Of a DNA stretch of 49,607 nucleotides, positions 23,015-35,191 are shown in pieces. Under the pieces are notes generated by a model. That model was not told the DNA's origin and ran no database searches. It saw only the letters and a program-made list of their open reading frames with translations. How positions within the stretch are numbered: the stretch's first letter is position 1; every line of letters begins with the position of its first letter. Position numbers and translations under genes: made by a program. Source of the stretch: Nitrospira sp. (lineage in GTDB: Bacteria; Nitrospirota; Nitrospiria; Nitrospirales; Nitrospiraceae); contig SWDI01000001.1 of the NCBI GenBank assembly GCA_005116955.1, forward strand, positions 365,822-415,428, read 5' to 3'.

Positions 23015-23608
23015 ATGATGGCCAGAATACTGCAGACAGCGAACCACTCTCGGGAACGAGCGAGCCGAGAGGTTAAGAACCGCAAGCCGCTTGTCGGGGT
23101 CTTGGGGGGGAGTAAATCGGATTTTCCTATTTTGGAAAAGGCCGGAGTGATTTTGGACGAGCTGAATATTCCCTATGAGCTACTCGTCGTTTCTGCACAT
23201 CGAACGCCGGATCGGCTCTTCGAGTACGCCACAACCGCTCCTGGCCGCGGGATCAAAGTGATCATTGCGGGGGCCGGAGGAGCCGCTCACCTTCCTGGCA
23301 TGTTGGCAGCAAAGACTCATCTTCCGGTGATTGGTGTCCCGATTCCTACAGAAAACCTTCGTGGCCTCGATTCCTTGTTGTCAATCGTTCAGATGCCCAA
23401 AGGTATTCCCGTGGCCACCGTGGCGATCGGAGGTGCCGAAAATGCTGGCCTCCTCGCAGGACAGATTTTAGCGGGAAGCCACTCTGAAATTGCCAAAAAC
23501 ATTAAGCGCTATCGGGCGGCTCAAACGAAGAGTGTTCTCAATTCTCCCGAGGCCAAGGGCACAGGTCTTGGTAACCTCGGAGCGGACGAGATGAGCCGAC
23601 GGCCGTGA
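23015..23608 (+). CDS. purE: N5-carboxyaminoimidazole ribonucleotide mutase
   Basis: PurE catalyses the conversion of N5-CAIR to CAIR in purine synthesis. [32 protein letters not shown] with the catalytic His, and the [16 protein letters not shown] loop are the family signatures. The protein has a longer than usual N-terminal tail of about 25 residues, supported by the GAAGGAGAGG site ahead of ATG 23015. Its stop codon overlaps the purK start, so the two are translationally coupled. Confidence 0.94.
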
Positions 23609-24768
23609 CGGAACGAGTCCTTGAGCCTGGTTCCACGCTCGGAGTATTGGGTGGGGGACAATTGGGGGCGATGTTCACTGGGGCTGCCCACCGCATGGGC
23701 TATCAGGTGGCTGTCTGGGATCCAGATGCCGACGCGCCAGCTCATCGGCTTGCCACCCACTCATGTACTGCGCCATTCTCAGATCGTGGCGCCCGTGACC
23801 GATTTGCCAGTCTCGTTGATGCCGTGACTTTGGAATGGGAAAATGTGCCGGCTGAGCTCTGTGAATGGCTGGAGATGCGTTGCCCGATGCGACCTACGGG
23901 AGCTGTGCTTAAGATCCTTCAAGACCGGATTGAACAGAAGCAATACCTATTGTCACGACACCTCTCCGTCCCCGCGTTCGCCATCGTCGAATCGGCACCT
24001 CAACTCGTCTCAGCAGTCGACCGTCTCGGCCTTCCCGCTGTCTGTAAGACCGCAAAGAGTGGGTACGACGGGAAAGGTCAGTGGCTACTTCGAACGCCCT
24101 CGGATGTCCAGGAGCTTGAACACATCTTGGGAACAGTCAAGGCCGGTCAACGATGGATTCTCGAACAGTTCATTGAATATGTCCGAGAGCTCTCGGTGCT
24201 CGTTGTGCGAAGCGAATGTGGGGCGTCCTGTGTGTATCCAGTGGTCGAGAATCGGCATGAGCAGGGCATCTTACGAGAAACGCGGGTGCCTGCTGCTATT
24301 CCACTTGACGTTGCTGAGCAGGTAACAGAACTTTCGAAGCGAGCCGTCACGGCGTTACAGGGTGTTGGTGTATTTTGTGTGGAACTCTTTCAGGCCAAGG
24401 ATGGGTCCCTGCTTATTAACGAGATTGCACCTCGTCCTCACAACTCGGGTCACTATACGTTGGACGTTTGTACGGTATCCCAATTCGAGCAACAGGTACG
24501 AGTGACCTGCGGGCTTCCATTGGGAGAAACAAGGCTCTTGAGCCCCGCGGTAATGGTCAATCTCATTGGTGAGGATGTAAATTCCGTGACATCCAGCGAA
24601 GGATCCTATGCACTCCATTCAACCGCAGGGGCTGTGCTTCATCTGTACGGAAAGCGGATGATTCGTCCTGGTAGAAAGATGGGGCATGTGACCTTTACCG
24701 CTCCTCAAGTGGCGACAGCAGCAGAAGCGGCTCGTCAGTTTATTGCACGCGTCCGACAACCTGCCTAA
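23605..24768 (+). CDS. purK: N5-carboxyaminoimidazole ribonucleotide synthase
   Basis: PurK uses ATP and bicarbonate to make N5-CAIR from AIR, the step before PurE. The N-terminal [22 protein letters not shown], the ATP-grasp lid [14 protein letters not shown] and [18 protein letters not shown] are diagnostic. The 387-aa length is standard. The GTG start at 23605 overlaps the purE stop codon, and the purE-purK order is the common operon form. Confidence 0.95.
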
Positions 24769-24972
24769 GCTCGTTTCAATCCTTCACGTCTATGTGCTCA
24801 AAAAGATTCCTGGTAGCCAACAGGATCCTGCCGTTCGATTTTGTCAATGGCTGGTCCGAAAAGGATCGGGAGGTAGATAACAACCCTCGTAAATAACATG
24901 GTTGGCTGGGAATCCTAGGGTATGACACTTGCTGGCTCCCACGTCCTGTTGCAAGCGGGAGGCTAGAAAAAC

Positions 24973-26820
24973 ATGGGACACAATTTGGTCCAAGCAGGTT
25001 CCGGTCAGGGGTCGGCTAGACTCTGTCGGTTGCTTTCGAACCCAAGCTCCCGATTCCTGGTTCTCCAGGGCCTCGTTACCATCATCCTTTCGTATGAATT
25101 GCTCTTCGGTGCCGATTCAGTCGTTAGTCGAGTGATGAGCAATAGTCTGGTGGTAGGGTTATGGCTGGGAATCCTCGTCATCGCGATGTTGCCTCAAGCT
25201 TTACTGGCATCGGCCTGGTTTAGTGCAGGACTTGTTGCAGCAGATACGCTCCTCGTGACAACGGTCATCTATCTTTCCGGAAACGCCCGATCAGATCTGT
25301 ACATTGCCTATTTTGTTCTTATGTTAGTGGCGGCGTCAGTCAGGCGGCTCAGTCATCTACTTGGCCTCTCACTGCTTTTGAGTGCTGGCTATGCGGTTGT
25401 GCTCTATGAGGGGGTACTGCAAACCGGAGTCATGGCTACCGGGCAGCTGCTGGGCATCCCGGTTCTTCTCGTCATGGCGGTGTTCTACGGGGTCGCGCTA
25501 GAAAGCACGACCGTTGCTCAGGAAGAAAAGGTCTCGCTCCAGAAAGATGTAGAGCAACTGAAGAAGACCGAGGGGGAATTGGAGACCGCCAAAACTCAGC
25601 TTGAAGCCAGAATTAAATCCCTGAAAGAGGACCTTAAAAAGGCGAATGTCGGTCTCCGCGAGGGGCATGTTGTCAGGCAGGGACTTGAGCGACAACTTCA
25701 TGAGGCACAGAAAATGGAAGCCGTCGGTCGAGTCACGGCCAGAATTGCCGGTGAATTCGGGGCGTTGTTTGCTGTCATTGGAAAACAGACCGGTGTCATG
25801 TTATCGGGTCTGCAGCCGAATGACCCTGTCAGGTCTTCTGCCGACGAGCTCTTTAGAGTCGGCGAAAGGGCTGCCACGCTCACCGCTCAGCTCATTGCAC
25901 TGGAGTGTGAGAGCCGGCACGTTGGACACATCTGGTCCGTCCAAGCGGTGTTTGCTGATCTGCACAGTATGATCGTGAGTCTATTGCCCGACCATATTGA
26001 GTTGATCGTTCAAGTGGATGAGCAGGTGGCCTACGCCGAGGTGGATCGAGAAGGCTTGGAAACCGTTCTTCTTCAATTGGTCGTCAATGCACGAGATGCG
26101 ATGCCCAACGGAGGCCGACTGACGATTGAGATCAAGACCATTGAAGAGATTCACAAATTGGCCCGACCGATGTCGGTCCATACAGCTCATTCCCAGATTC
26201 TCATTCAAATCAGTGATACCGGAACCGGCATGAGTCTGGATACTCAGGCCCATATGTTCGAACCGCTGTTCTCGACGAAAGAAACCAACATCGGCCTTGG
26301 TCTCACTGCGGTCTTCGGGATTGTTAAACAAAACCACGGTCTTCTAGACGTCGAGAGCCGGCCAGGGCAAGGGACGGTTGTCCGAGTCATATTCCCTGCG
26401 GCCTCGGCGCAGGAGGTACGGGACGAGATGACGCCCAAAGCTCTGTTGGCCAAAGGAGATGAAACGATCCTGCTTGTGGAGGAAAGCGAAATTGAGCGGA
26501 AGCTGGCACGGTCCATCTTACAGCGCCATCGCTATCGAGTCTTGGAGGCGGCCTCATCGGTCGAGGCGCTTATGCTCACTCAACACTATAAGGGGATTGT
26601 TCATCTCGCAGTGAGTCCCTTAGTGATGCATGAGATCGGAGGGCGTGAACTTGCCCGCCGACTTCTGAGCCAGCAACCAACGATGAAGACGTTGTTTGTC
26701 TCGGGCTACGATAATGAAACGATTCAGCACCATCGGATCAATCAGCGGTTTGTCCTACAGCATCCCTACCGTCAGTCCGGCTTAGTGGAGAAGGTCAGAG
26801 AGATGTTGGATGCCGCATGA
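24973..26820 (+). CDS. Membrane hybrid histidine kinase-like protein lacking phospho-acceptor residues
   Basis: Residues about 25-175 hold six hydrophobic segments; 180-240 form a coiled coil, followed by a kinase core and a C-terminal receiver domain. In the dimerisation helix the usual A-H-D-F pattern reads IAGEFGALF, with Gly260 where the phospho-accepting His should be. The ATPase lobe looks intact: VVNARDAMPNGG, DTGTGM, GLGLTAVFG. In the receiver domain the acidic pair is Glu503-Glu504, the phosphorylated Asp is Pro549 (VSPLVM), and the conserved Lys is His (QHPY). Phosphotransfer by the normal route therefore seems impossible, and a signalling pseudokinase is likely. The upstream gap of about 200 bp holds nothing recognised. 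Confidence 0.85.
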   Translation: MGHNLVQAGSGQGSARLCRLLSNPSSRFLVLQGLVTIILSYELLFGADSVVSRVMSNSLVVGLWLGILVIAMLPQALLASAWFSAGLVAADTLLVTTVIYLSGNARSDLYIAYFVLMLVAASVRRLSHLLGLSLLLSAGYAVVLYEGVLQTGVMATGQLLGIPVLLVMAVFYGVALESTTVAQEEKVSLQKDVEQLKKTEGELETAKTQLEARIKSLKEDLKKANVGLREGHVVRQGLERQLHEAQKMEAVGRVTARIAGEFGALFAVIGKQTGVMLSGLQPNDPVRSSADELFRVGERAATLTAQLIALECESRHVGHIWSVQAVFADLHSMIVSLLPDHIELIVQVDEQVAYAEVDREGLETVLLQLVVNARDAMPNGGRLTIEIKTIEEIHKLARPMSVHTAHSQILIQISDTGTGMSLDTQAHMFEPLFSTKETNIGLGLTAVFGIVKQNHGLLDVESRPGQGTVVRVIFPAASAQEVRDEMTPKALLAKGDETILLVEESEIERKLARSILQRHRYRVLEAASSVEALMLTQHYKGIVHLAVSPLVMHEIGGRELARRLLSQQPTMKTLFVSGYDNETIQHHRINQRFVLQHPYRQSGLVEKVREMLDAA

Positions 26821-26853: not shown

Positions 26854-27552
26854 TTAAGACCACGTCGACCGGCCAGGCGAAAAAAAACGCACATCCTTCC
26901 GTTTGAAAAGACCAATCAGTGCCATGCCTACGATGAATCCACCGATATGAGCGAAAAAGGCAACGCCCCCTCCTGTCGCGCCCACGCTCATGCCTCCACT
27001 GATCAGCTGCGTGATAAACCACATGCCGAGAACGATGCCCGCTGGTACTCGGGTCATCCCGATCGCGGGCAGCAAGACCAGCACGTGAGCGCGTGGAAAT
27101 AACAGCAGATAAGCACCAAGCACAGCCGAGATGGCCCCGCTGGCGCCCACCATCGGGATTTGGGAGGAAGGGTCAGTTAAGGCATGGCTCAGCGCAGCCA
27201 GGATACCAGATAGGAGATAGAAGACGACGAATTTCGCGTGACCCATCGCATCTTCGATGTTATTGCCGAAAATCCAGAGGTAGAGCATGTTCCCGAGTAG
27301 GTGCATCCAGCCTCCGTGAAGAAACATGCTAGTCACCAGGCTGAGGGATGCCGGAAAGGCAACGGCTTCCTCGGGAAGCGAAGCCTGGCCGAAGACAATG
27401 GCAGGGATGGCGCCGTATTGAAATGCGAAGAGGTCGGCAGCCTCCTGGGGAAGATTCACTTGATAGAGAAATACCGCGACACAGATACCGATAAAGATCA
27501 TCGTGACGATGGGAGTCCGTTGAGTGGGATTATCGTCGTGGAGAGGAATCAT
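26854..27552 (-). CDS. Rhomboid-family intramembrane serine protease
   Basis: Six membrane helices are visible. The catalytic Ser is in GASGAISAVLGAY and the catalytic His in FAHIGGFIVG. The L1 loop region (MFLHGGWMHLLGNMLYLWIFG) is the best-conserved rhomboid signature. The enzyme cleaves membrane proteins within the bilayer; targets are unknown. The gene starts 12 bp after the DHH phosphoesterase ends on the same strand, so both are probably co-transcribed. Confidence 0.92.
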   Translation of the reverse strand: MIPLHDDNPTQRTPIVTMIFIGICVAVFLYQVNLPQEAADLFAFQYGAIPAIVFGQASLPEEAVAFPASLSLVTSMFLHGGWMHLLGNMLYLWIFGNNIEDAMGHAKFVVFYLLSGILAALSHALTDPSSQIPMVGASGAISAVLGAYLLLFPRAHVLVLLPAIGMTRVPAGIVLGMWFITQLISGGMSVGATGGGVAFFAHIGGFIVGMALIGLFKRKDVRFFSPGRSTWS

Positions 27553-34754: not shown

Positions 34755-35191
34755 GCGTACAATTTGACGCCACAAGACAGCGGATTGCGAGACTAACGAG
34801 TGATGGCAACGTGCGTGACTTATTCCGACACCGGCAAGCCGGTACGCCTGTTGCTGACGGAATGACAGTCAAGCGATTACACAGGTGTGAGATGTTTGCT
34901 GCTCGGCCTTCGCCAAGCCAAACATATGATTGCCGATCGTGGCTATGACGGGGATTGGCTCATCACCGTTTTGAAGGGACAGGGCGTCACACCGTGCATC
35001 CCGCCGCGCAAGAACCCAAAGAAGCAGCGCTCCTACAGCAAACACTCTACAAACAACGCCACAAGATCGAGATCATGTTTGGCCGGACCAAGGATTGGCG
35101 CCGGATTGCCATGCGGTACGATCGCTGTGCCCACACTTTTATTTCAGCCATTTGTACCGCCGCAACCGTCATCTTTTATCTCAAAGAATGA
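34755..35191 (+). pseudogene. Broken IS5-family transposase (C-terminal part)
   Basis: Fragments match the C-terminal half of IS5/IS1031-type transposases: TGKPVRLLLTE, then HMIADRGYDGDW in one frame, CIPPRKNPKKQRSY, and after a frameshift TLYKQRHKIEIMFGRTKDWRR and RYDRCAHTFISAI in another. An in-frame TGA at 34863-34865 and the frameshift near 35030 break the frame, and the N-terminal part is missing. It is therefore a dead insertion-sequence remnant between the exported protein gene and nhaD. No terminal inverted repeats were found. Confidence 0.85.

Follow-up and report, generated by a model that had tools for sequence, protein, structure and literature searches.

The open reading frame (ORF) at positions 24973 to 26820 (forward strand) of the window, as the whole 49,607-nucleotide stretch of Nitrospira sp. 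DNA analyzed here is called, was predicted to encode a pseudo-hybrid histidine kinase. The favored reading, to which a probability of about 0.6 is given, is that the protein derives from a CckA-like hybrid kinase, has been inherited vertically in the Nitrospiraceae, is under selection, is unable to run a His-Asp phosphorelay, and would serve as a nucleotide-dependent switch or adaptor. It would probably signal by shape change and binding partners, not by phosphorylation. As judged from the residues of the window's protein, a His-Asp phosphorelay is excluded and phosphatase action appears unlikely.

Predicted gene and protein architecture

The ORF has exactly these bounds, codes for 615 amino acids (aa), and starts at position 24973, preceded by a likely ribosome-binding site, GGGAGG (24957 to 24962; forward strand, as are all features given below except the rhomboid-family gene). 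The domains follow the order membrane domain, coiled coil, DHp domain, ATP lobe, and receiver. The membrane domain (residues 27 to 177; positions 25051 to 25503), which had no match in Pfam, comprises approximately six helices according to alignments and the helix layout of a full-length model that was built from a shallow alignment, is of low confidence (pLDDT of 58.7), and was used for helix layout only. Residues 178 to 237 (25504 to 25683), annotated as a coiled coil, form a single continuous helix in the model and had only weak matches of the coiled-coil type. The DHp domain without a phosphoacceptor (residues 238 to 310; 25684 to 25902) was recognized from alignment and fold, and the HisKA family had no Pfam match in the 615-aa protein. 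The HATPase_c (CA) domain (residues 311 to 477; 25903 to 26403) and the pseudo-receiver domain (residues 497 to 613; 26461 to 26811) matched the Pfam models HATPase_c (60.1 bits; cutoff, 26.4) and Response_reg (36.7 bits; cutoff, 30.2), respectively.

The nearest NCBIfam model was CckA (NF046020), with a score of 236.1 bits against a curated cutoff of 1000, so that the protein is not classified as a CckA equivalog. The closest PDB chain was CckA with ADP (5idj). In VIA-align comparisons, whose rows span mainly the DHp domain and ATP lobe, the core model aligned with the CckA DHp-CA region with ADP (Z, 23.6; rmsd, 10.2; 225 aligned), with the CckA CA domain alone (Z, 23.4; rmsd, 1.8; 161 aligned), and with DivL (Z, 20.6; rmsd, 6.5; 206 aligned), which was among the nearest folds.

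Other Nitrospiraceae proteins (L100 to L112) carry the same membrane domain fused to canonical PAS-kinase-receiver cores, to GGDEF-EAL domains, or to a short Cys-rich tail. Apparently, this region is a shared sensor domain of Nitrospiraceae signaling proteins that is without a name.

Loss of phosphorylation sites

The preliminary description had read the protein as a hybrid sensor kinase lacking both phospho-accepting residues, and the comparison with hybrid kinases that it had proposed bore this reading out. When the protein was aligned with 36 relatives belonging to other phyla and with 8 paralogues of the Nitrospiraceae that share the membrane domain, Gly260 (codon at 25750 to 25752) fell at the phosphoacceptor His site, Pro549 (26617 to 26619) at the receiver Asp site, and His597 (26761 to 26763) at the site of the conserved Lys; all 36 of the other-phylum relatives have His, Asp, and Lys, respectively, at these sites. 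The acid pair, also described as altered, is indeed Glu503-Glu504 (26479 to 26484), but only its second acid has changed, Glu-Asp being the norm of the subfamily; all 36 other-phylum relatives carry Asp as the second acid. The second acid is Asp in 0 of 99 orthologues.

Among 41 same-genus orthologues, site 260 was occupied by Gly (n = 23), Lys (n = 9), Val (n = 3), Ser (n = 2), Glu (n = 2), Arg (n = 1), or Thr (n = 1). Pro549 was present in 39 of 40 same-genus orthologues, and the Lys site held Gln, His, or Ser. Because His260 was never seen (0/41) and Pro549 was nearly constant, sequencing error or chance is excluded as an explanation for the substitutions.

The wider alignment contained 99 relatives (40 from the window's genus [g1], 25 from g14, 23 from g17, 7 from g15, and one each from g4, g6, g8, and g16), those in other genera having been found by an order-wide search that used the membrane and coil region as the query. 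Under Fitch parsimony, with a FastTree tree as the basis, site 260 changed 27 times (91st percentile of sites), and the flanking residues A259, E261, and F262 changed 2, 5, and 2 times, respectively; 21 changes were counted at position 264, 13 at position 549, and 9 at position 597. The phosphatase Asn at H+4 (position 264) was missing from 98 of the 99 relatives. His260 was present in 17/99 (16 of the 25 g14 orthologues, together with L125), Asp549 in 23/99, and the receiver Lys in only 4/99, all of them deep relatives. His and Asp occurred together in L125 alone, which has neither the second acid nor the Lys; thus, no orthologue was found with a normal His and Asp, the case that the preliminary description had named as contrary to its reading. 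The parsimony counts suggest that receiver chemistry was lost first and that several independent losses of the His followed. Autophosphorylation is possible in the 16 g14 orthologues that keep the His. Many g15 and g17 orthologues (L080 to L086, L098, and L113 to L134) have a His at position 264, four residues past the lost phosphoacceptor.

By sequence and fold, the protein falls within the definition of a pseudo-histidine kinase, i.e., a core without at least one residue needed for kinase function. Its receiver, which is recognized by PF00072 and is missing the Asp, second acid, and Lys, falls within that of a pseudo-receiver. The features of a functional CckA-like hybrid histidine kinase (phosphoacceptor His, receiver Asp, acid pair, and Lys) are absent, as is the conserved Tyr that characterizes DivL at the His site, which is Gly here and variable in the orthologues.

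Conservation and remodeling of the ATP lobe

An earlier claim that all ATP-binding boxes are intact held for the N, G1, F, and G2-core residues and had to be revised for the lid. N372, D415-x-G-x-G419, E430-P, F433, K436, and G441-L-G-L are kept in the window's protein. The N-box Asn372 (26086 to 26088) and the G1-box residues D415, G417, and G419 (box at 26215 to 26229) are invariant in 99/99 relatives, and K436, G441, and G443 are present in 98/99. The lid, which links the F and G2 boxes, has two residues fewer, and G2 lacks its canonical (K/R)GT; the lid and G2 core (26272 to 26304) read STKETNIGLGL here, versus STKEVGKGTGLGL. Compared to the 36 other-phylum relatives and 8 paralogues, the short lid without the G2 Gly-Thr was found in 95/95 relatives of g1, g14, g15, and g17.

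Judged from these residues, nucleotide binding is likely and catalysis is doubtful. In the deep relatives L092 and L095, the ATP lobe is partly lost as well, and some lineages may therefore do without ATP. Given this loss, the altered lid, and the dN/dS of the ATP lobe (see below), any nucleotide role may be confined to some of the orthologues.

Synteny and gene loss

The gene is flanked upstream by purE-purK (23015 to 24768) and downstream by a convergent rhomboid-family gene (26854 to 27552, reverse strand), both of which are conserved neighbors. In loci read with flanks (short loci excluded), the order purE-purK-gene-rhomboid was kept in g1, g4, g6, g14, g15, g16, and g17. A local rearrangement was found in L010 (and in L155, the same locus), and L093 (g8), which is nonsyntenic, may not be an orthologue.

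The gene had a match in 45 of 79 same-genus genomes, some of the matches being broken or partial, and was not found in 34/79, which marks it as accessory and dispensable. Incomplete assemblies may explain some of these absences. Twenty of the 34 genomes without the gene were read; purK adjoins the rhomboid gene with no trace left in 18 of them, and remnants are present in 2 (G031 and G056). In L241 and L247, pieces of the gene's receiver end are left between purK and the rhomboid gene. The orthologue in G055 (L046, 887 to 1868) is interrupted by approximately 1 kb of inserted sequence that contains a transposase-like frame, and a frame-breaking deletion in G016 (L044/L164) takes out the part of the ATP lobe from the N-box to G2.

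Promoter and upstream element

A sigma-54-type −24/−12 element, GGTATGACACTTGCT (24919 to 24933), lies 54 nucleotides upstream of the ATG and has the GG-N10-GC spacing of a sigma-54-dependent gene; rpoN is present in the genome. Of the 49 orthologues for which 140 nucleotides of upstream sequence were at hand, 48 have the strict motif, compared to 0.13% of shuffles; the exception is L093. Farther upstream, a conserved element, CCGTTCGATTTTGTCA (24831 to 24846), represents a candidate activator-binding site with a TTTTGT core. Relative to the −24 GG, this core falls between −80 and −94 in 47/48 orthologues; most members of the window's genus have it at −80 or −81, and elsewhere it lies at −90 to −94. 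A genome search with the upstream element returned one perfect match, its own locus, and no other place in the genome combines it with the sigma-54 element. A scan for sigma-70 promoters gave no match close to the gene. The conservation of both promoter and upstream element speaks for a gene that is separately regulated and in use. A second sigma-54-like match, at position 34841, was judged to be due to chance.

Selection on the protein

The dN/dS ratio across orthologues, a check that the preliminary description had suggested, was 0.08 to 0.15, revealing strong purifying selection (NG86 simple pairwise estimates; medians of 0.116 in g1, 0.077 in g14, and 0.150 in g17). The corresponding medians for the receiver were 0.064, 0.038, and 0.105 (NG86). 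The dN/dS of the DHp domain was 0.062, and that of the ATP lobe exceeded those of both the DHp domain and the receiver. By entropy, the dead receiver was the most constrained domain: its mean entropy (0.77) was lower, and its invariant fraction (0.38) higher, than those of the other domains. From the DHp domain to the receiver, 21 positions were fixed in 95 orthologues yet rare in 44 canonical relatives; 10 of these, including R588, N590, R600, and Q601, sit in the receiver. Selection for a role outside the phosphorelay, as originally proposed, is well supported by the recovery of 99 relatives, conserved synteny, the low dN/dS, the conserved promoter, and the contrast between drifting phosphosites and fixed ATP-pocket residues; the role itself may be ATP sensing or plain scaffolding.

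Relationship to known systems

The DHp-ATP lobe-receiver core is shared with CckA-type hybrid histidine kinases, the best match in both NCBIfam and PDB; unlike these, the protein lacks the His, receiver Asp, second acid, and Lys and has another membrane sensor. The Caulobacter pseudo-histidine kinase DivL likewise has a kinase-like core in which the His is replaced and the ATP boxes are present, and it works without kinase activity. It demonstrates that a core of this type is able to function through binding. In DivL, the His site is taken by a conserved Tyr, and there is no receiver; in the protein described here, the site varies freely and the receiver, too, is dead. The protein may also be likened to plant subfamily-II ethylene receptors, which combine a membrane sensor with a degenerate histidine-kinase core and act through protein binding; these receptors are eukaryotic and have a different sensor.

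The pseudo-receivers of ShkA and CikA resemble this one in being receiver folds that lack phosphorylation residues and form part of a hybrid kinase, but they regulate a kinase core that autophosphorylates (PMC12632262), and the core here has no His. Caulobacter CCNA_03265 is a hybrid kinase that also lacks the conserved His; its receiver keeps the Asp (PMC11481889) that is lost here. The phosphorylation site is missing from approximately 0.9% of HisKA domains and 2.0% of receiver domains, and the switching of bacterial pseudo-receivers has been described as unresolved (PMC12632262). A literature search limited to open-access papers and directed at histidine pseudokinases and at the combination of pseudokinase and pseudo-receiver found no paper.

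Proposed mode of action and alternative explanations

Under the favored reading, RpoN and an activator would make the protein on demand, the membrane domain would sense an input, and the DHp dimer with its nucleotide-loaded ATP lobe would form a conformational switch. As its output, the protein would bind a partner (either a kinase or a response regulator) independently of phosphorylation, via surfaces of the pseudo-receiver, the DHp domain, or both. Extending this to a family-wide class is more tentative: the receiver possibly died first and the His later and repeatedly, the proteins having been kept as sigma-54-induced, nucleotide-gated membrane adaptors with a remodeled ATP lid.

Four alternatives were weighed. 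It is rather unlikely that the protein is a DivL-like sensor or decoy, in which the dead core docks a response regulator and relays its phosphorylation state by binding, with ATP being secondary. Such a role would fit the strong constraint on the DHp domain, the place of DivL among the nearest folds, and the properties of DivL, which is active neither as a kinase nor as a phosphatase and binds DivK~P and, weakly, TNP-ATP (PMC4211667). However, the substitute in DivL is a Tyr that matters and the equivalent site here varies freely, the domain that DivL lacks is the most constrained one here, and the ATP-pocket residues are present in nearly all orthologues. A trans-acting subunit, which would form a heterodimer with a His-bearing hybrid kinase and phosphorylate the His of its partner from its own ATP lobe, is quite improbable. 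Although the catalytic N, G1, F, and G2-core residues are retained and the same genome has canonical paralogues with AHDFNN (L002 and L003), the shorter lid without the G2 (K/R)GT is common to all 95 relatives in four genera, the neighborhood has no partner gene, and the acid E261 is near-invariant, though it is expected to act beside a His of the same chain.

An active kinase working through a shifted or residual phosphoacceptor is very improbable. His264 in many g15 and g17 orthologues and His260 in 16/25 g14 members are in its favor, but members of the window's genus have Ala, Glu, Ser, Thr, Val, or Gly at position 264, no DHp His is conserved in that genus, and the attached receiver is without the second acid in every orthologue. 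The slightest probability of all attaches to a pseudogene in decay. The absence of the gene from 34/79 same-genus genomes, the remnants in G031 and G056, the interrupted copy in G055, and the frameshifted copy in G016 would agree with decay; against this, the gene is open and strongly constrained in approximately 95 genomes, family-specific fixed residues, promoter, and synteny are conserved, and decay is contradicted already by dN/dS and conservation in the intact lineages.

Occurrence in nitrifiers

The family constitutes a natural series at one locus: its members, which have related sensors and share one type of promoter, keep the His, keep the Asp, or have lost both. By means of this series, the residues needed by a phosphorylation-free hybrid kinase become testable. 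The series lies in nitrifiers, including comammox Nitrospira. A tie between the gene and ammonia oxidation was considered and rejected, as ammonia monooxygenase family matches occurred in genomes with and without the gene and showed no clear link by eye. The window's genome contains an ammonia monooxygenase family gene (G000:C1:838658-839365), which identifies it as a comammox-type Nitrospira.
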